A stretch of DNA of 52,228 nt from an uncultured bacterium (GTDB lineage: Bacteria; Bacillota; Clostridia; Oscillospirales; Oscillospiraceae). This document shows positions 6,395 through 52,228 of this stretch, piece after piece. Each line of letters opens with the position of its first letter. Position 1 is the first letter of the stretch. The position numbers and the translations under genes were made by a program. The DNA is taken from assembly GCA_946548895.1 (NCBI GenBank), contig CAMNQF010000020.1, forward strand, positions 1 to 52,228, written 5' to 3'. The notes under the pieces were generated by a model. That model worked only from the letters and a program-made list of their open reading frames with translations. It was not told the DNA's origin and searched no databases.

Positions 6395-6467
6395 GCGGCC
6401 TCGAAATAGAGCGGAGAATCCGAAGCCGTAAGGGCTCCGCCGGAACGCCCCGCCTGATTATTCCGGT

Positions 6468-6494
6468 ATAACGGCCGGCCTTTACGCATACCAT
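6468..6494 (+). promoter_or_regulatory. Sigma-E-type (mother-cell) promoter of spoIIID
   Basis: ATA (6468-6470), 16 bp, CATACCAT (6487-6494). This fits the Bacillus sigma-E pattern ATA-N16-CATANNNT. It predicts a transcript start near 6501, about 30 bp before the coding start. In Bacillus spoIIID is transcribed by sigma-E, so sequence and known biology agree. Confidence 0.65.
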
Positions 6495-6529
6495 TTCCAT
6501 GCAGCAAGAAGCATGGGAGTGTTGTTTGT

Positions 6530-6778
6530 ATGAAAGGCAATATGGAAGAGCGCGCCCAGGAGCTGGCGCTGTACATCATTGAAAACAAGGCCACCGTCCG
6601 GGCCGCCGCCACCCGCTTCGGCATTAGCAAGTCCACCGTACATAAGGACCTGAGCGAGCGCCTGCCCACCATCAACCGGGGCCTGTACGGGCAGGTAAAG
6701 GCAATCCTCAACGAAAACAAAGCGGAACGGCACATCCGGGGCGGCATCGCCACCCGCAAAAAATACAAAGGGGAATAA
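6530..6778 (+). CDS. spoIIID: Sporulation regulator SpoIIID
   Basis: 82 residues, the usual SpoIIID size. It is a mother-cell DNA-binding protein that acts between sigma-E and sigma-K. The helix-turn-helix GISKSTVHKDLSERLP (about residues 31-46) and the basic C-terminal tail RHIRGGIATRKKYK are diagnostic. Start at 6530 follows GGGAGTG by about 8 bp; an in-frame ATG four codons later is a weaker alternative. The upstream region carries a sigma-E-type promoter. In Bacillus SpoIIID also activates sigK and the skin recombinase gene, which is relevant to the sigK fragment at 49 kb. Confidence 0.95.
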   Translation: MKGNMEERAQELALYIIENKATVRAAATRFGISKSTVHKDLSERLPTINRGLYGQVKAILNENKAERHIRGGIATRKKYKGE

Positions 6779-44084: not shown

Positions 44085-45413
44085 ATGGCAAAGCCCCTGG
44101 TGGCCATTGTGGGCCGCCCCAATGTGGGCAAGTCCATGCTGTTCAACAAACTGACGGGCAAACGGCTGTCCATCGTGGAGGACACCCCCGGCGTCACCCG
44201 GGACCGGCTGTACGCCCAGGCGGAGTGGCGGGGGCGCACCTTCGACCTGGTGGACACCGGCGGCATCGAGCCGGGCGCCGACGACCAGATCCTGTCCTTT
44301 ATGCGGGAGCAGGCGGAGATCGCCATCGCCGCCGCCACCGTCATCGTCTTTGTGTGCGACATCCGCACCGGCATGACCGCCGCCGACCAGGAGGTGGCCG
44401 GAATGCTCCAGCGGTCCCGGAAGCCGGTGGTGCTGGCGGTGAACAAGATGGACTCCACCGGCCACAACGACCCGGATATGTACGAGTTCTACAACCTGGG
44501 CCTGGGGGACCCCTACCCGGTTTCCGCCGTCCACGGCCACGGCACCGGCGACCTGCTGGACGCCTGCTTCGCCTACTTCCCCCCCGAGGACCAGGAGGAG
44601 GAAGCGGACGACGTGGTAAAGGTGGCCATCATCGGCAAGCCAAACGTGGGCAAGTCCTCCCTGGTGAACCGCGTTTTGGGCCAGGAGCGGGTGATTGTGT
44701 CCGACGTGGCAGGCACCACCCGGGACGCCGTGGACAGCTACCTGGAGCGGAACGGCCAGAAATACCTCATCATCGACACGGCGGGTATGCGGAAAAAGTC
44801 CAAGGTGGACGACCGGGTGGAGAAGTTTTCCGTCCTCCGGGCCGCCATGGCCATTGAGCGCAGCGACGTGTGCGTGATGATGCTCGACGCCCGGGAGGGC
44901 GTCACCGAGCAGGACACCAAGGTGGCCGGACTGGCCCACGAGGCGGGCAAGGCCTGCGTCATCGCGGTGAACAAGTGGGACGCCGTGGAGAAGGACGGCA
45001 AAACCATGCAGCGCATGGAGGAGGAGGTCCGCCGGGGCCTGAGCTATATGACCTACGCCCCGGTGTTGTTCCTCTCGGCGCTGACGGGCCAGCGGGTGGA
45101 CAAACTGTTCGGCCTGATAGACAGCGTGGTGAGCCAGGCCGCCCTGCGCATCCCCACCGGGATGCTCAACCAGGTGCTCAACGACGCCCAGGCCCGGGTT
45201 CAGCCCCCCACCGACAGGGGCAAGCGGCTGAAGATCTACTATATGACCCAGATCGGGGTGAAGCCGCCCCACTTCGTCATCTTCTGCAACGACGCGAAAC
45301 TGTTCCACTTTTCCTACCAGCGCTATCTGGAAAACCAGATCCGGGGCACCTTCGGCCTGACGGGGACCCCGGTGCGCATCACCATCCGACAAAAGGGAGA
45401 CAAGGAGGAATGA
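44085..45413 (+). CDS. der: Ribosome biogenesis GTPase Der (EngA)
   Basis: 442 residues with two GTPase domains in tandem, the mark of Der. P-loops GRPNVGKS (about 8-15) and GKPNVGKS (about 184-191); G3 DTGG and DTAG; G4 NKMD and NKWD; a C-terminal KH-like domain with RLKIYYMTQ and FCNDAKLFHFSYQRYLENQI-type ending. Needed for 50S assembly. Start at 44085 after TAGGAGGG. plsY overlaps its end. Confidence 0.97.
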   Translation: MAKPLVAIVGRPNVGKSMLFNKLTGKRLSIVEDTPGVTRDRLYAQAEWRGRTFDLVDTGGIEPGADDQILSFMREQAEIAIAAATVIVFVCDIRTGMTAADQEVAGMLQRSRKPVVLAVNKMDSTGHNDPDMYEFYNLGLGDPYPVSAVHGHGTGDLLDACFAYFPPEDQEEEADDVVKVAIIGKPNVGKSSLVNRVLGQERVIVSDVAGTTRDAVDSYLERNGQKYLIIDTAGMRKKSKVDDRVEKFSVLRAAMAIERSDVCVMMLDAREGVTEQDTKVAGLAHEAGKACVIAVNKWDAVEKDGKTMQRMEEEVRRGLSYMTYAPVLFLSALTGQRVDKLFGLIDSVVSQAALRIPTGMLNQVLNDAQARVQPPTDRGKRLKIYYMTQIGVKPPHFVIFCNDAKLFHFSYQRYLENQIRGTFGLTGTPVRITIRQKGDKEE

Positions 45414-45415
45414 CC

Positions 45416-46192
45416 ATGCTGCATTCTCGTATGCTGGAGGCGGCCGGCGTCAGCCCCGGCTGGCTGGCGGTGGCGGCCGCGGGCGTGGCCGTGGTGGCCT
45501 ATTTCCTGGGCTGCTTTAACGGCGCCGTGGTGGTGTCCCGCTACATCCTGCGGGACGATATCCGGGACCACGGCAGCGGCAACGCCGGGCTGACCAATTT
45601 CTACCGGGTATTCGGCGGCCCGCTGACGGCGGTGGTGATCCTCAGCGACGCGGTGAAGGCGGTGCTGGCGGTGCTGTTCGCCATGTTCATCGCCGGCCGC
45701 CTGTCCCCGGAGCTGATGACCCTGGCCCAATACTGGGCGGGGACCTTCTGCATGATCGGCCATATGTACCCCTGCACTTTCCAGTTCCGGGGGGGCAAAG
45801 GGGTGCTGTCCGGCAGCGCCGTGGCCATCATGATCGGCATCGGCGGCGGCGGGGTGCTGCCCAGCTGGACCATCCCGGTGGTCCTTTGGGGGGGCTTCCT
45901 CATCCTGGCGGTGGCGACGAAGTATATCTCCCTGGGGTCCTGCTGGGGGGGCGCGTCCTTTATCGTAATGTCCTGGCTGGTGTACCGGGACCCGCTGATT
46001 CTGGCGCTGTCCGCCGTGATGGGCGGGCTGCTGCTGTGGAAGCACCGGGGGAATATGGTGCGCATCGTAAAGGGTACCGAATCCAAATTTGCCTTCCACA
46101 AGGGGAGCCAGTCCAAGAAGGGCGGGGCGGAAACGCCCCCGCCGGAGGCGGACCCCCCCCAGGAGGCCGGGTCAGAGGGCGAAAAGCCATAA
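45416..46192 (+). CDS. plsY: Glycerol-3-phosphate acyltransferase PlsY
   Basis: 258 residues. Membrane enzyme that acylates glycerol 3-phosphate from acyl-phosphate, first step of phospholipid synthesis. Motifs: HGSGNAGLTNFYRVFGG, HMYPCTFQFRGGKGVLSG and the C-terminal HRGNMVRIVKGTESKF. It carries a longer than usual C-terminal tail rich in Pro and Glu (about 230-258). Two possible ATGs: 45410 (too close to AGGAGG) and 45416 (7 bp), so I use the latter. Order der-plsY is a common Firmicute pairing. Confidence 0.93.
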   Translation: MLHSRMLEAAGVSPGWLAVAAAGVAVVAYFLGCFNGAVVVSRYILRDDIRDHGSGNAGLTNFYRVFGGPLTAVVILSDAVKAVLAVLFAMFIAGRLSPELMTLAQYWAGTFCMIGHMYPCTFQFRGGKGVLSGSAVAIMIGIGGGGVLPSWTIPVVLWGGFLILAVATKYISLGSCWGGASFIVMSWLVYRDPLILALSAVMGGLLLWKHRGNMVRIVKGTESKFAFHKGSQSKKGGAETPPPEADPPQEAGSEGEKP

Positions 46193-46228
46193 AAAAACTG
46201 GACCCTGTGCCGCGGGCACAGGGTCCAG
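46191..46228 (-). terminator. Terminator of rpmB
   Basis: A perfect 14-bp stem (46198-46211 with 46215-46228), GCG loop; read leftward it is followed by seven T. It also lies 6 bp after the plsY stop and may end that message. Confidence 0.9.
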
Positions 46229-46256
46229 CTGTCTGCGGAAAACCTTTTTCAACGAT

Positions 46257-46445
46257 TTACACGGCGCGGGTGACCTTGCCGGAGCGGAGGCAGCGGGTGC
46301 ACACATAGACGTGCTTGGGCGTGCCGTCCACCACAGCCTTGACGCGCTTGACGTTGGGCTTCCAGGGGCGGTTGGAGCGGCGGTGGGAGTGGGACACCTG
46401 GATGCCGAAGTTTACGCCTTTGCCGCAAAACTCGCATTTGGCCAT
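46257..46445 (-). CDS. rpmB: 50S ribosomal protein L28
   Basis: 62 residues. MAKCEFCGKGVNFGIQVSHS and the basic WKPNVKRVKA are typical; two Cys pairs (CEFC and CTRC) make this the zinc-binding C+ form. Start at 46445 with GGGGGTTAG upstream; the frame extends upstream but without a ribosome site. Single gene with its own promoter and terminator. Confidence 0.97.
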   Translation of the reverse strand: MAKCEFCGKGVNFGIQVSHSHRRSNRPWKPNVKRVKAVVDGTPKHVYVCTRCLRSGKVTRAV

Positions 46446-46495
46446 ATTGACTAACCCCCTTGCTGGTTGGAATTCGTTCAAACGATAACTACATT

Positions 46496-46524
46496 ATGCT
46501 ACCATAGCGGGCGGGAAAAATCAA
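46496..46524 (-). promoter_or_regulatory. Promoter of rpmB
   Basis: Leftward -35 TTGATT (46519-46524), 17-bp spacer, -10 TAGCAT (46496-46501). Confidence 0.65.
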
Positions 46525-46567
46525 GAGTGAATTTGATGGATTTGCTATTTTTTTCGGGGACGGGATA

Positions 46568-46576
46568 TGCTAGAAT
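46568..46576 (+). promoter_or_regulatory. Extended -10 promoter of hprK
   Basis: TGCTAGAAT (46568-46576) with a T-rich stretch upstream instead of a clear -35; start codon follows 34 bp later. Confidence 0.5.
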
Positions 46577-46610
46577 AGAGGCAGATTAAATAAAAAGGAG
46601 CGTGACCGCG

Positions 46611-47564
46611 GTGGCGAGCAAAACCGGCATTAAGCTGGGCATTATCATCGACAACTTCCACCTGGATGTGCTGTACGGCCCGGAGGGCTACCGGGAGAAG
46701 CTGATTACCATCGACGATGTAAACCGGCCCGGCCTTCAGCTCACCGGCTTTTTCGACTACTTCGACCGGGAGCGGATGCAGCTGCTGGGCCTGGTGGAGA
46801 TCTCCTACCTGGAGGGGATCTCGGCGGAGAAACGGGCGGCGGTGTTCGACACTCTGTTCTCCTACCACACGCCGGCGGTGATCTTTGCCCGGGGGCTGAA
46901 GCCCTACCCGGAGTGCATGGAGATGGCGAAAAAGCACAACCAGGCCATTCTCGGTACGCGGGAAAACACCTCCAGCATTATGAGCACCATGATCGCGTAC
47001 CTGCGCACGGCGCTGTCCCCCACCATCACCCGCCACGGCGTGCTGGTGGAGGTGTACGGCGAGGGAGTCATGCTGGCGGGGGAGTCGGGCATCGGCAAGA
47101 GCGAGACGGCCATTGAGCTGGTGAAGCGGGGCCACCGCCTGATCGCGGACGACGCCATTGAGATCCGCCGCAACCCCAGCGGGGGGCTCATCGGCACCGC
47201 GCCGGAGCTGATCCGCTATTATATTGAGCTGCGGGGCATCGGCGTGGTGGACGTGCGGCGGCTGTTTGGTATGTCCGCCGTCAAGTTCGACAGCGCCATT
47301 GACCTGGTGATTGAGATGGAGACCTGGAAGGATGGCAAGCTGTACGACCGCCTGGGCGCGGAGGAGCATTTCACCACCCTGCTGGATGTGCGCGTTCCCA
47401 CCATCACCATCCCGGTGCGGCCGGGGCGGAATCTGGCCGTGGTCATCGAGGTGGCGGCGATGAACAACCGAAACAAAAAGATGGGCTGCAACGACGCGTT
47501 GGAGCTGGCCATGCAGGTGGACAGCCACATCGACCAGAAGTATCTGGAAACGAATCCCCAGTGA
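46611..47564 (+). CDS. hprK: HPr kinase/phosphorylase
   Basis: 317 residues. Phosphorylates and dephosphorylates Ser46 of HPr and so links glycolytic state to catabolite repression by CcpA. N-terminal domain with LARG-like ARGLKPYPE, His142 (TRHGVLVEVYG), P-loop GESGIGKS (157-164), and the family signature near EIRGIGV-type ELRGIGVVDVRRLFG. GTG start at 46611 with AAGGAG 9-10 bp upstream; the GTG at 46602 is too close to it. Its target HPr is encoded at 23.4 kb in this window. Confidence 0.96.
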   Translation: MASKTGIKLGIIIDNFHLDVLYGPEGYREKLITIDDVNRPGLQLTGFFDYFDRERMQLLGLVEISYLEGISAEKRAAVFDTLFSYHTPAVIFARGLKPYPECMEMAKKHNQAILGTRENTSSIMSTMIAYLRTALSPTITRHGVLVEVYGEGVMLAGESGIGKSETAIELVKRGHRLIADDAIEIRRNPSGGLIGTAPELIRYYIELRGIGVVDVRRLFGMSAVKFDSAIDLVIEMETWKDGKLYDRLGAEEHFTTLLDVRVPTITIPVRPGRNLAVVIEVAAMNNRNKKMGCNDALELAMQVDSHIDQKYLETNPQ

Positions 47565-49014: not shown

Positions 49015-49080
49015 TCAGCGCCGCTCGTATTCTAACCGCAGCTTTTCCAGGGCCTTTTTCTCAATGCGGGATACATAGCA
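49015..49080 (-). pseudogene. sigK: 3' end of a SigK-type sporulation sigma factor gene, separated from its 5' part
   Basis: Read leftward, the last 20 codons before TGA (49015-49017) encode YVSRIEKKALEKLRLEYERR. YVSRIEKKAL is the end of the region 4.2 recognition helix of sigma-K (ISRSYVSRIEKxAL in Bacillus SigK); SigE, SigF and SigG read differently at these positions. Upstream of TAT the frame continues as LQYQGC, which does not match a sigma factor (ISRS expected), so homology stops abruptly at about 49078. A recombinase gene begins to read 45 bp further. In Bacillus and C. difficile sigK is split by the skin element in a comparable way, with the 3' piece called spoIIIC in Bacillus. The 5' part is not in the window. 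Too short for certainty on its own; context raises confidence. Confidence 0.75.
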
Positions 49081-49124
49081 CCCCTGGTATTGTAAACGAT
49101 GCGGTTTGTGATTTTGTGTCGGAT
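49075..49124. other. Predicted attachment-site junction of the sigK-inserted element
   Basis: The boundary between sigK-like sequence and unrelated DNA falls near 49078, inside codons for the recognition helix. The recombinase stop codon is at 49125-49127. Large serine recombinases are usually encoded next to their own attachment site, so the crossover core should lie in this interval. The exact core needs the other end. Confidence 0.55.
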
Positions 49125-50699
49125 TTACTCGTTTTCCAGCCGCTTAAAGTGGAATTTGATGATGATTTGTTTGTCTGCGGTCAGTTCCACCCGCTCAATG
49201 AGACTGACCAGCAGTTCACGATTGGTGGACGCGGTTTCCAGAAACCGCTCCACCAGTTTTTTTGCCAGTTCAGTTTGTTCAGCGGGGGAGTAATCCGGGC
49301 GGCCCAACTGACTGAGTCTCTGCTCCAAGGCGGCGCGGTCGGCCTTGACCTTGGCGTAGATGCGCTGGAAGTCGGCCCCGTCCAAGATGCCGCTGAGCTT
49401 ATCCATGTAGACCTTGTCCAGATGGGTCGTCAGGCTGTCGATCTTGGCCTTGAGAGAGTTGACCTCCTTCTCGTTGTCCGCCTCCGCGACAGCCTTGGCC
49501 ACCGCTCTCTGTGCCTGGGGCAGAAGCCGGTCCGCTTGCAGATAGGCCCCGCAGACCTCCCGCACCTTTTCCACCACCGCCTGGGTGACAGTCTCTTCCT
49601 TGATGGTGTGGCTGGCGCAGACCCCCGCCTTAGTGAAGCGCTGATAGGTTCGGCAGACGAAAAACAAACGGTCTTCGCCAGCGGCGGTTTTGCGGTTGAT
49701 GACTGCCAGCGGGTAGCCGCACTCGTGGCAGAAAATCAGTCCCTTGAGCAGAAAGTCATAGGTTCTGCTGCGGGTGTGTCTGCGGCTGTTGACCAATGCC
49801 CGGACCTTGTCGAAAGTCTCCCGGTCAATGATGGGCTCGTGGGTGCCCTCTACCACCACCCAGTCCCGGCGGTCCTGTTTGATGCGCTTCTTGGACTTGT
49901 AGTTGATTTTTCGGGTGCGGCCCTGAACCATGCTTCCGATATAGGTCTCGTTTTGCAGCATATCGGAAATGCGCTCACTGCTCCACAGGCCGGTATAGGG
50001 GCCGGGGTTGGCAACCGGTAGTCCGGCGTAGGCGGCAGGGGTGGGGACGCCCTCAGCGTTCAGTTGGGCGGCAATCTGGCGGCAGCTCACGCCATCCAGG
50101 GCCATGCCGAAGATCCTCCGCACCATAGGGGCCGCGTCCTCGTCAATGACAATCTTGTTCTTCTCCATTGGGTGCATCTTGTAGCCGTAGACCGGCTTGC
50201 CGCCGATGAACAGGCCCTTGCGCTGCTTGTCATGTTTGACGCTGGAAATCTTCTTGGAGATGTCCTTGGCATACATATCGTTCATGATGGCGCGGAAGGG
50301 TGTGATGTCATTGGCAGTGGAATCCACCCCGGTGTCGATGCCGTCCAGCAGGGAGATGTAGCGTACCCGGTGCTCCGGGAAGTACCGCTCCATGTAGTGG
50401 CCAGTCAGGATGTAGTCCCGGCCCAGACGGCTCAGGTCTTTGGTGATGACCATGTTAACCTTTTTGGCCTCAATGTCGGCGATCATGCGCTGGAAGTTCG
50501 GGCGGTCAAAATTTGTGCCGCTCCAGCCGTCGTCAATATAGGTGTCGAAAACGGTCAGACGGTGCTGCTGGACAAACTCATTGAGCAGGGACTGCTGGTT
50601 GTTGACGCTCTCGGACGGGCCTTCGCTCTCATCCTCCTTTGACAGTCTGATGTATAATGCCGCATGGTAGTCCATAAGGTTGCTTATCTCTAAGTACAT
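49125..50699 (-). CDS. Large serine recombinase of the sigK-inserted element
   Basis: 524 residues. Catalytic Ser20 in ALYIRLSKEDESEG, resolvase domain to about residue 150 with KDLSRLGRDYILTGHYMERY; then a recombinase domain (RRIFGMALDGVSCRQIAAQLN), a zinc ribbon (about 340-385; ICHECG-type FCHECGYPLAV and a second Cys pair), a coiled coil (about 400-470) and the C-terminal DUF4368-like end. It reads like Clostridia transposon/ICE recombinases (TnpX group) rather than a close SpoIVCA copy. ATG at 50699 follows AGGAGG by 6 bp; a 9-bp inverted repeat flanks this start. It reads in the same direction as sigK. Confidence 0.92.
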   Translation of the reverse strand: MYLEISNLMDYHAALYIRLSKEDESEGPSESVNNQQSLLNEFVQQHRLTVFDTYIDDGWSGTNFDRPNFQRMIADIEAKKVNMVITKDLSRLGRDYILTGHYMERYFPEHRVRYISLLDGIDTGVDSTANDITPFRAIMNDMYAKDISKKISSVKHDKQRKGLFIGGKPVYGYKMHPMEKNKIVIDEDAAPMVRRIFGMALDGVSCRQIAAQLNAEGVPTPAAYAGLPVANPGPYTGLWSSERISDMLQNETYIGSMVQGRTRKINYKSKKRIKQDRRDWVVVEGTHEPIIDRETFDKVRALVNSRRHTRSRTYDFLLKGLIFCHECGYPLAVINRKTAAGEDRLFFVCRTYQRFTKAGVCASHTIKEETVTQAVVEKVREVCGAYLQADRLLPQAQRAVAKAVAEADNEKEVNSLKAKIDSLTTHLDKVYMDKLSGILDGADFQRIYAKVKADRAALEQRLSQLGRPDYSPAEQTELAKKLVERFLETASTNRELLVSLIERVELTADKQIIIKFHFKRLENE

Positions 50700-50720
50700 A
50701 CAATGCCTCCTGAGATAAGC
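50682..50720 (-). promoter_or_regulatory. Inverted repeat enclosing the recombinase ribosome site and start codon
   Basis: GCTTATCTC (50682-50690) and GAGATAAGC (50712-50720), 21-bp spacer holding AGGAGG and the ATG. In RNA the stem would place both in its loop; in DNA it could be an operator. Confidence 0.65.
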
Positions 50721-50737
50721 GGCCATTCATCATCTGT

Positions 50738-50767
50738 ATTATACAATAGGATTCTGGTATTTTGTAA
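50738..50767 (-). promoter_or_regulatory. Promoter of the recombinase gene
   Basis: Leftward -35 TTACAA (50762-50767), 18-bp spacer, -10 TATAAT (50738-50743). It looks like sigma-A, not like a sigma-E promoter. The rest of the stretch from 50770 to 51095 is A+T-rich and I see no gene in it. Confidence 0.65.
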
Positions 50768-51095
50768 CATTTTGGAGCTCTTTTCTGAGAAAAGTATCAA
50801 AGGAGCTTTGAATGAGCTGGGCAATGCTCCGTTCATTTGTAAAATAGCGGCACAGCAATACCAATTTCTGCGTTTCCAATGGGACACCCCCTGTTTTAGG
50901 ATGATAAAACATATGCAGACTGCGGCGGATGATTGCTGGCTGGGCAAAAGAAAGGCGATGAACTGGATACCCATCGCTTGCTTATAGTTACAAATTATTC
51001 AAATATTTGCCGTGTTTTACATAAACTACTGATAGTTGCTTATGATGTCTTTGCTCTGATCCGTAGAGTCGTTTCCAGAAGTTGGTTCCGCATTT

Positions 51096-51245
51096 TTACC
51101 AATTCCTTTTTCTTTGACTATAAAGCGAACCGAAATTCTTTAACAACCCCACCTTAGAAATGCTGTCCGCCAGCTTTTGCACAGCTTTCGGGTCGGTCTC
51201 CCGCCGCCCAGCGTTGACGTTAATCTGATAAATAGGAATTTGCAT
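51096..51245 (-). pseudogene. Truncated ParB-like N-terminal domain gene
   Basis: Starts well, with GGAGGTGAGAAT before the ATG, and encodes MQIPIYQINVNAGRRETDP and then QKLADSISKVGLL, the opening of ParB/Spo0J-type nuclease domains found in integrative elements. After GLL the similarity ends (expected continuation NPITV) and the frame closes 12 codons later. Only 49 residues remain of a domain of about 90. Probably deleted or rearranged. Confidence 0.7.
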
Positions 51246-51306
51246 ATTCTCACCTCCCCAGCCCTGGACCGTTTTGCCATTTATTTTTGCCGGATAAAAC
51301 ACCCAA

Positions 51307-51350
51307 CACCGCAGGAAAGTCTTGCGGTGCCGGGTCTTGCATCCCGCAAG
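51307..51350 (-). promoter_or_regulatory. Mutually exclusive hairpins upstream of the ParB fragment
   Basis: CTTGCGG (51321-51327) lies in the CACCGCA/TGCGGTG hairpin (51307-51313 with 51323-51329) and can instead pair with CCGCAAG (51344-51350). On the leftward strand the first hairpin is followed by TTGGGTGTTTTA, a weak terminator-like end. Looks like an attenuator of the element. The rest of 51350-51800 holds no gene I can support; it resembles non-coding DNA beside mobilisation genes. Confidence 0.4.
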
Positions 51351-51800
51351 TGGGGGAGAGGGCCGCGCCGGTCCTGTTTGTGCCCTCATACTGTGAAGAA
51401 ATTGACCGGCGCGGGTGTCCCTCCCATACCCTATATGCGAATGTGTGCCGTATTATCGGGCGGCATGACCGCCCTGCTGCTCACCCCCGGCACGGGAATA
51501 TGTAAGCCCGCCTTTGGCGTGGCGGCGCGATACCGACAGACGGTGGCGGCAGTTGACTAAGCTGCCCAGGCCGTTCCCACAGTACGTCCCTTTTACCCTG
51601 CGATACGGGTCTTTGCGGTGTGTCCCACATCTGGCGGCGGTGCCAGCGCCGTCCGGCCCTCCAGGTGTCGCTCGTGCCTTTGATGTGATCGCTTTGACGG
51701 GCAGGGAGCGGAAGGCTTCACCTCCTTTCCTCCGGCCCTGGCCCGCAGGCAGTCTTGGCGATTGGGTGGTCTGTGTGGGACGCACACTTACATATTGACT

Positions 51801-52100
51801 AGCGGCCCGTTTCGGCACCGTTTCCATCCCTGGCGGGTAAAACGTGCTGTCAAACCCATCCGGGGTTGGAATCGGTCGATCATACGGATGATAGTGCAAT
51901 AATAATGTAAGCGTCACCTCCGGGTGACGCTTTTTAGCTGCCTTGACGGTCTTGGCCGCCATTGAATCAAACTATCTGTAGCTTCCTACGACAAAATCAG
52001 TTACGCCAAATTCTGTGATATGATGCTCTACCGCAGCAGACAGTTGAGGCAACAGGCTATCCAATGCCTCATGATGCCCGATGAAGAAACAGGTTGGCAT
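51801..52100 (-). pseudogene. SLOG/DUF1273-type gene broken by an amber codon and a 3' truncation
   Basis: ATG at 52100 after TAGGAGGG. It encodes MPTCFFIGHHEALDSLLPQL, then EHHITEFGVTDFVVGSYR, then TAG (51972-51974), then in the same frame FDSMAAKTVKAAKKRHPEV, LLLHYHPYDRPIPTP and FYPPGMETVPKR. These are the successive blocks of a SLOG-superfamily Rossmann protein (GHR and GxxGxFDxMAA type motifs), common in mobile elements. Similarity stops near 51801, where unrelated sequence begins. The stop and the missing C-terminal half mean it is not functional. Confidence 0.7.
51909..51935 (+). terminator. Rightward terminator-like hairpin inside the broken SLOG-type gene
   Basis: A perfect 10-bp stem (51909-51918 with 51923-51932), TCCG loop, then T residues on the + strand. 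It may arise by chance from coding sequence or stop antisense transcription. Confidence 0.5.
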
Positions 52101-52228
52101 GGTATCCCTCCTAAGCAGAAAAGGAGTTTCCTCACGCTTCATCCTGCCATTATATTAAGTAATTATTATAAATAAATGTGGTTATCCCTTTAGTTCAGCC
52201 AGAGGAAAAGGCCGGAATAAGGGACAGA
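52101..52228. other. Upstream region of the broken SLOG-type gene
   Basis: A+T-rich; read leftward it contains TATAAT near 52149-52154 that could be the gene's -10 box. No gene is seen before the window ends. Confidence 0.35.

Follow-up and report, generated by a model that had tools for sequence, protein, structure and literature searches.

The sigma factor gene sigK is split near its 3' end in the Oscillospiraceae genome studied here, most probably by a skin-like integrative element; the split itself was confirmed and lies far beyond chance. The window, meaning the whole stretch of DNA that was analysed (52,228 nucleotides), is the entire contig C20 of a draft assembly of 116 contigs with 4% contamination, and it carries the sigK 3' end next to the gene of a large serine recombinase (LSR); the 5' part of sigK is found on contig C57. 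We consider it probable that an element integrated at codon 226 of sigK and would excise to restore the gene, with timing in the mother cell proposed by analogy. The most likely reading overall is likewise one of skin-like elements whose excision is needed to rebuild sigK, and, with less assurance, we lean towards regarding sigK in gut Oscillospirales as a combinatorial split gene, from which sigma-K could be made only after every element present (one to three, a number of them conjugative) has been removed.

Two parts of sigK share an attachment site

The sigK 3' end, comprising the last 19 codons (226-244, from the crossover codon) and the stop, occupies positions 49015-49074 on the minus strand, and the translation of 49015-49101 on that strand reads HRLQYQGCYVSRIEKKALEKLRLEYERR followed by a stop. 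The preliminary description had recognized the end of SigK in this leftward frame of about 20 codons, a reading that holds: similarity to sister genes begins at an att core, TATGTATC (49070-49077, minus), which is also found on the sigK 5' part on C57 and whose symmetry centre, GT in codon 226, would fit the expectation for a serine integrase. The tail DNA is 94, 91, and 87% identical to the one-piece sigK of the sister genomes G028, G022, and G038, and similarity to sister genes starts inside the core in four of six sisters and 4 bases before it in two. Next to the core, the element arm of the right att site (CATCGTTTACAATACCAGGGGTGC; 49078-49101, minus) has an inverted partner on C57, the arms matching as inverted repeats at 17 of 24 positions, a score reached by 0 of 100,000 shuffles.

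The sigK 5' part that had been predicted, ending in ISRS(Y) beside a matching junction, is present on C57 (483-1094, minus), where the frame ends in LCGISRSYVSRSA and a stop, and similarity to sister genes ceases 3 to 8 bases beyond the core. C57 and C20 have GCTATGTATC in common (10-bp core), and joining them there gives an open frame of 244 codons with the split at codon 226, as near to the 3' end as had been proposed. NF004471 identifies the joined protein as SigK (261.5 bits; cut-off, 252), and the protein stays below the TIGR02846 cut-off of 298.65 (255.1 bits), as does the one-piece sister gene of G022 (258.0 bits). Across the window genome, TIGR02846 matched a gene at C5:62400 (252.8 bits), the C57 part (234.7 bits, model positions 10-213 of 227), and weaker paralogues, all below the cut-off. 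By TIGR02835, the gene at C5:62400 is SigE (353.5 bits; cut-off, 348.6); a SigG-like gene comes next, and both are complete. A degenerate search of the genome with the tail codons hit C20 with one mismatch and three places with two mismatches, and a control pattern hit three. Neither this search nor the TIGR02846 profile search found an intact sigK in the window genome. Both halves, their common core, and the in-frame rejoining thus support the sigK-interrupting element that the preliminary description had put forward.

The recombinase gene and its element

The large serine recombinase reported beside the tail in the same orientation was borne out: the gene (49125-50699, minus) lies 5' of the sigK tail with its stop about 50 bp from the att core, and the ORF 49125-50726 carries the Pfam domains Resolvase (PF00239), Recombinase (PF07508), and a Zn-ribbon (PF13408) and matches phrog_95 (integrase). 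This LSR belongs to the class that we call C. Although its frame is open from 50726, the ATG at 50699 is preferred as the start, as first described, because AGGAGG stands directly 5' of it. A sigma-A-like promoter (TTACAA, 18 bp, TATAAT) precedes the gene at 50738-50767 (minus). Sigma-A-like scores were 8.32 versus 7.09 in shuffles (sd 0.11), sigma-E-like scores 7.81 versus 7.43 (sd 0.13) near the LSR and 8.62 versus 8.50 (sd 0.15) further up, and a rough sigma-G/K-type motif further up 9.35 versus 8.92 (sd 0.10), all deviations being overstated because the loci are related. The sigma-E-like scores are at best slightly above shuffles and suggest no clear sigma-E control. The spoIIID gene noted earlier in the window is confirmed (frame extent 6458-6775, plus; TIGR02844, 115 bits; cut-off, 111.5), and the genome has genes for SpoIVA, SigE, and SpoIIID.

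A 46-codon ORF (50739-50879, minus) stands 5' of the LSR, and an ORF of 40-50 codons directly 5' of the recombinase recurred in 37 of 37 class-C loci, using a profile that was seeded with 15 of these 37 and iterated on them. It had no significant Pfam or PHROG match and is a candidate recombination directionality factor. The rest of the visible element extends over 50880-52177, up to the end of a multi-copy repeat (52178-52228, plus) that interrupts the assembly within the element. In this part, a short frame at 51096-51389 (minus) resembles, by eye, the start of a ParB-type protein, cut short. The end of C20 and the start of C57 are identical sequence that occurs at 14 places in the genome, each within 26 bases of a contig end, seven of them exact and seven with 2 mismatches, in two end variants (2 mismatches in 28); this is probably an insertion sequence. 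Because the repeat breaks the assembly inside the element, the direct orientation of the att sites in the window genome is inferred, and with the element incomplete on C20, statements on content come from the elements of relatives.

In our proposed mechanism, an integrative element would have entered codon 226 by serine recombinase-mediated attP x attB recombination, between ISRSY and VSRIEKK in the helix of sigma region 4, with the LSR gene at one end of the element and its 3' end facing the sigK tail. If the two att sites recombined, the element would be released and the sigK reading frame made whole again. The precedents of Bacillus and Clostridioides difficile suggest that this would take place in the mother cell, so only the terminal cell would lose the element. 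The LSR would probably be expressed constitutively from its sigma-A-type promoter, with direction and timing of recombination set by another factor, for which the conserved 46-codon ORF is the candidate. By its architecture, the supported reading of the window element is that it is skin-like, and its excision would follow from that likeness.

Eight site-C elements of relatives are complete on one contig. Measured between sigK and the stop of the recombinase, their lengths range from 2.3 kb (G370) to 15.8 kb (G450), and they have little in common besides the recombinase. The smallest of these (G370:C13:62976-65983; L237) is very small for such an element. The 54.8-kb site-A span of G019, in which nested elements are possible, encodes a coupling protein, a TraG-like ATPase, and a MobA relaxase together with an integrase; the site-C span of G279 encodes a coupling protein, and the site-A span of G257 a relaxase and sugar-transport genes. 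None of 30 long proteins from five spans of relatives matched a phage structural family. Named phages and plasmids yielded no close recombinase, as every record (776 from phages, 469 from plasmids) fell below 60% identity; among the matches listed, the best had 36.7% identity over 71% of the query, and another 36.1%. IMG/VR contigs carry recombinase copies that are 92 and 90% identical (11 loci), and these two contigs end 6 and 62 bases past the recombinase stop. Serine recombinases made up most of the 10 proteins that were scanned on two IMG/VR contigs, the one with the 92% copy and another with a 67% copy, and no phage structural family was among them. Further LSR genes were seen beside the class-C relative on IMG/VR contigs, four in L306 and three in L309.

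Three integration sites and multi-piece genes

Related species have sigK in one piece, as the comparison suggested at the outset had anticipated, and others have it split at one or more of three joins: A near K81-K82, B near E125-N126, and C at V226 (about codons 81, 126, and 226). Joins A and B were placed from register plots, some of which are out of register by an indel. Each site has its own LSR class, defined by an N-terminal motif, with 20-29% identity between classes and 48-92% (A, 14 proteins), 41-74% (B, 8), and 53-98% (C, 35) within them; five of 62 LSRs were left unclassed, and none of the 57 classed ones scored best outside its own class. All 14 class-A LSRs have their 3' end at a sigK junction, eight at the 5' part and six at the 3' side.

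Among 42 genomes of the window's genus, which includes Candidatus Enterenecus, 18 have sigK in one piece, 17 have it split, three are ambiguous at contig edges (G009, G013, G023), and four yielded no sigK, as read from a table of matches in which the one-piece G028 and G038 have one stop flagged in the aligned stretch. Site A alone is occupied in 10 of the split genomes (only the N piece was seen in G018, G034, and G041), one of which, G040, also loses similarity at codon 226 and probably has a second break there. Sites A and B are both occupied in four (G016 without the middle piece, G037 without the last part), and site C in three, namely the window genome, G014 (5' part and arm), and G036 (recombinase and tail only). 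The control paralogue sigE gave a single row in 40 of the 42 genomes, 38 of which reach at least query position 240. In one genome from each of 49 other genera of the family, sigK is in one piece in 28 (G044 with a flagged stop), split in 13 (G075 and G079 counted with only one piece seen), and not detectable in eight, that is, split in 13 of the 41 sampled genera with a detectable sigK. Nine of 58 genomes sampled across the order had no match; 46 of the 49 matching genomes reach at least position 237, and the matches in G118, G136, and G142 stop at 228-229, with a class-C recombinase in G118 and G142.

A strong class-C recombinase match was found in 52 of 400 family genomes, and a sigK tail lies within 220 bases 3' of it in 31 of the 36 that were checkable. 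The recombinase is reversed and adjoins the sigK 5' part in G270 and G358, the 5' part lies 7.6 kb (G186) and 1.7 kb (G245) from it in two more, and the locus of G064 runs into a contig end. The element in these four genomes other than G064 may sit in the opposite orientation or be inverted. Fifteen further genomes from other families of the order gave 11 loci with the tail, one reversed, two with a sigK piece in the locus, and one at a contig end. Flavonifractor plautii ATCC 29863 has its sigK divided between two contigs, one with the 5' part and the other with the recombinase, after which come VSRIEKKALKKLEAAMGAQE and a stop.

Several genomes carry more than one element. G176, a single contig of 4,308,696 bases, carries three sigK pieces, all on the same strand; 10.9 kb separate them at B and about 21.7 kb at C, and the rejoined frame is open. 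Three pieces were likewise found in G279 and G333 (A and C), G379, G065, and G305 (B and C), and G210 and G015 (A and B). In G189, sigK apparently comes in four pieces, three of them together on one contig and the tail, with its recombinase, on a second. Altogether, 21 genomes were rejoined in register with no stop within the translated coding part. In this set, G420 and G279 were flagged for stops upstream of the start, G176 and G379 were initially two to three codons short and then corrected, and five site-A-only genomes were translated for just 133 codons beyond the join, with ends seen for G001, G019, and G027 and G040 broken there.

Mobility, selection, and alternative explanations

Elements at site C move between hosts, since their recombinases are often far more alike than the SigK of those hosts. 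The class-C recombinases of G279 and G254 are 97% identical, versus 62% for SigK, and synonymous distances at site C are dS 0.22 for the recombinase versus 1.24 for SigK. Recombinase and SigK distances in 32 genomes (two of 34 were dropped for missing data) gave a Mantel r of 0.26, with 29 of 5000 permutations as high. The low correlation and the mismatch in dS rule out one ancient, vertically kept site-C element. Given that site-C elements are young and mobile, an intact tail says little about its use in the window genome. In G015 and G017, the site-A LSR (dS 0.79) is about as old as SigK (dS 0.82), and the three-piece SigK has a dN/dS of 0.065, which is the best evidence for continued use of a split sigK; if the split gene is still used, excision would be required. 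Ages are unequal in the site-A pair G001-G019 (LSR dS 1.85 versus SigK 0.53; SigK dN/dS 0.053), and for eight site-C pairs, dN/dS of the SigK 5' parts lay in the range 0.09-0.23.

These data bear on the main alternative, that sigK is merely a landing site for selfish elements, the split disabling late sporulation and excision being just part of transfer. The near-identity of site-C recombinases in divergent hosts is what it would lead one to expect, as are the genes for conjugation in two spans (site A of G019 and site C of G279), the many relatives with sigK in one piece, and the eight of 49 genera in which sigK was not detectable. We nevertheless consider it unlikely, in view of the purifying selection on a three-piece SigK whose site-A recombinase is equally old, the open frames of the rejoined genes, and the retention of SigE, SpoIIID, and SpoIVA. 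The preliminary description had posed a developmental switch and a selfish element as alternatives; the two are compatible, as site-C elements move horizontally and the three-piece pair is under purifying selection.

Against an element that would excise to restore sigK, one could also argue that C20 and C57 come from different organisms or that their junctions are chimeric, given a contaminated draft assembly in which both contigs end in a multi-copy repeat. Such an artefact is very improbable, as the two contigs have the same core and matching arms and the same sister species is most similar on both sides; eight other genomes and the finished G176 each show this arrangement on one contig, a recurrence in relatives that rules out an artefact as a general explanation. 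That the 19 codons end another sigma factor gene, as the helix motif common to sporulation sigma factors might allow, can be dismissed, because C5 carries both SigE and the SigG-like gene of the window genome in full, the tail agrees with the sigK DNA of sister genomes, and the sigK 5' part of relatives lies at the opposite end of the same element.

Comparison with known systems and implications

As described, the C. difficile skin element, with its CD1231 recombinase and CD1234 directionality factor, resembles the arrangement found here in being an LSR element inside sigK with the recombinase directly upstream of the sigK 3' part, a sigma-A-type recombinase promoter, and inverted repeats around a short core (PMC5025042). 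The site studied here differs in lying near the 3' end, in codon 226, with up to three elements per gene in relatives, and, compared by description, the small ORF has 46 codons rather than 72 and is a candidate for the directionality role. In Bacillus subtilis, sigK is likewise rebuilt by an element-encoded LSR (SpoIVCA); that skin element is reported as prophage-like, with 48 kb and a recombinase under sigma-E and SpoIIID (PMC5025042, PMC13141910), whereas the LSR promoter here is sigma-A-like. The gin element in gerE of Bacillus cereus, as described, is also a non-phage element within a sporulation gene and carries several serine recombinase genes, comparable to the two IMG/VR contigs with a class-C recombinase, but it has another target gene and is a single insertion (PMC5595907).

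sigK has further been reported as a serine integrase attachment site for Alicyclobacillus phage MMB025 (PMC13141910), Clostridium perfringens phiS63 (named in PMC13141910), and a Clostridium tetani prophage (PMC5553647). These are described as phages, in contrast to the spans of relatives, in which the 30 long proteins scanned had no phage structural match. Published sigK insertions, as described, are single in B. subtilis, C. difficile, and C. tetani, and a skin element has been described as exceptional among clostridia (PMC5025042). We found no report of several elements in one sigK in the open-licence literature. New here are the site near the sigK 3' end, the non-phage content in relatives, and above all the repeated, multiple splitting.

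A split sigK would look missing or truncated, which bears on calling spore formers from genomes. The recurrent splitting bears on why mobile elements choose sigK repeatedly and on whether development depends on element excision. If sigK is a combinatorial split gene, as many as three independent mobile elements would have to act together for spores to mature, and these elements would find a safe harbour in a gene that only the dying mother cell needs. F. plautii is listed among endospore-forming taxa in treated infant faeces (PMC10655253), and F. plautii ATCC 29863, a culturable named strain with a site-C split, makes the question directly testable. Counting against our preferred explanation, a related species of one genus, Flavonifractor porci, is described as non-spore-forming (PMC12050419).

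Gene order around sigK

At the sequence level, the sister sigK genes can be taken as the empty site; this does not extend to gene order. In G004 and G030 (L276, L275), der and hprK lie 5' of sigK on the sigK strand, whereas in the window (44085-47564) they are 3' of the sigK tail on the other strand, hinting at a possible inversion in the window genome. The neighbourhoods of G163 and G379, which have the same genus label, have only sigK in common. Between the sigK middle piece and tail of G379 (C69, 102362-131295; L218, L262), we noticed a class II (D, K, N type) tRNA synthetase, a DNA topoisomerase, and a TrkH transporter; either this reflects a rearrangement, or excision would strip these core genes from the mother cell. 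On a finished contig of G619 (C1:3055498-3195197), two sigK pieces lie 140 kb apart, and the sampled part of the interval holds a RecD2-like helicase, a DNA polymerase IV-like gene, and another serine recombinase.
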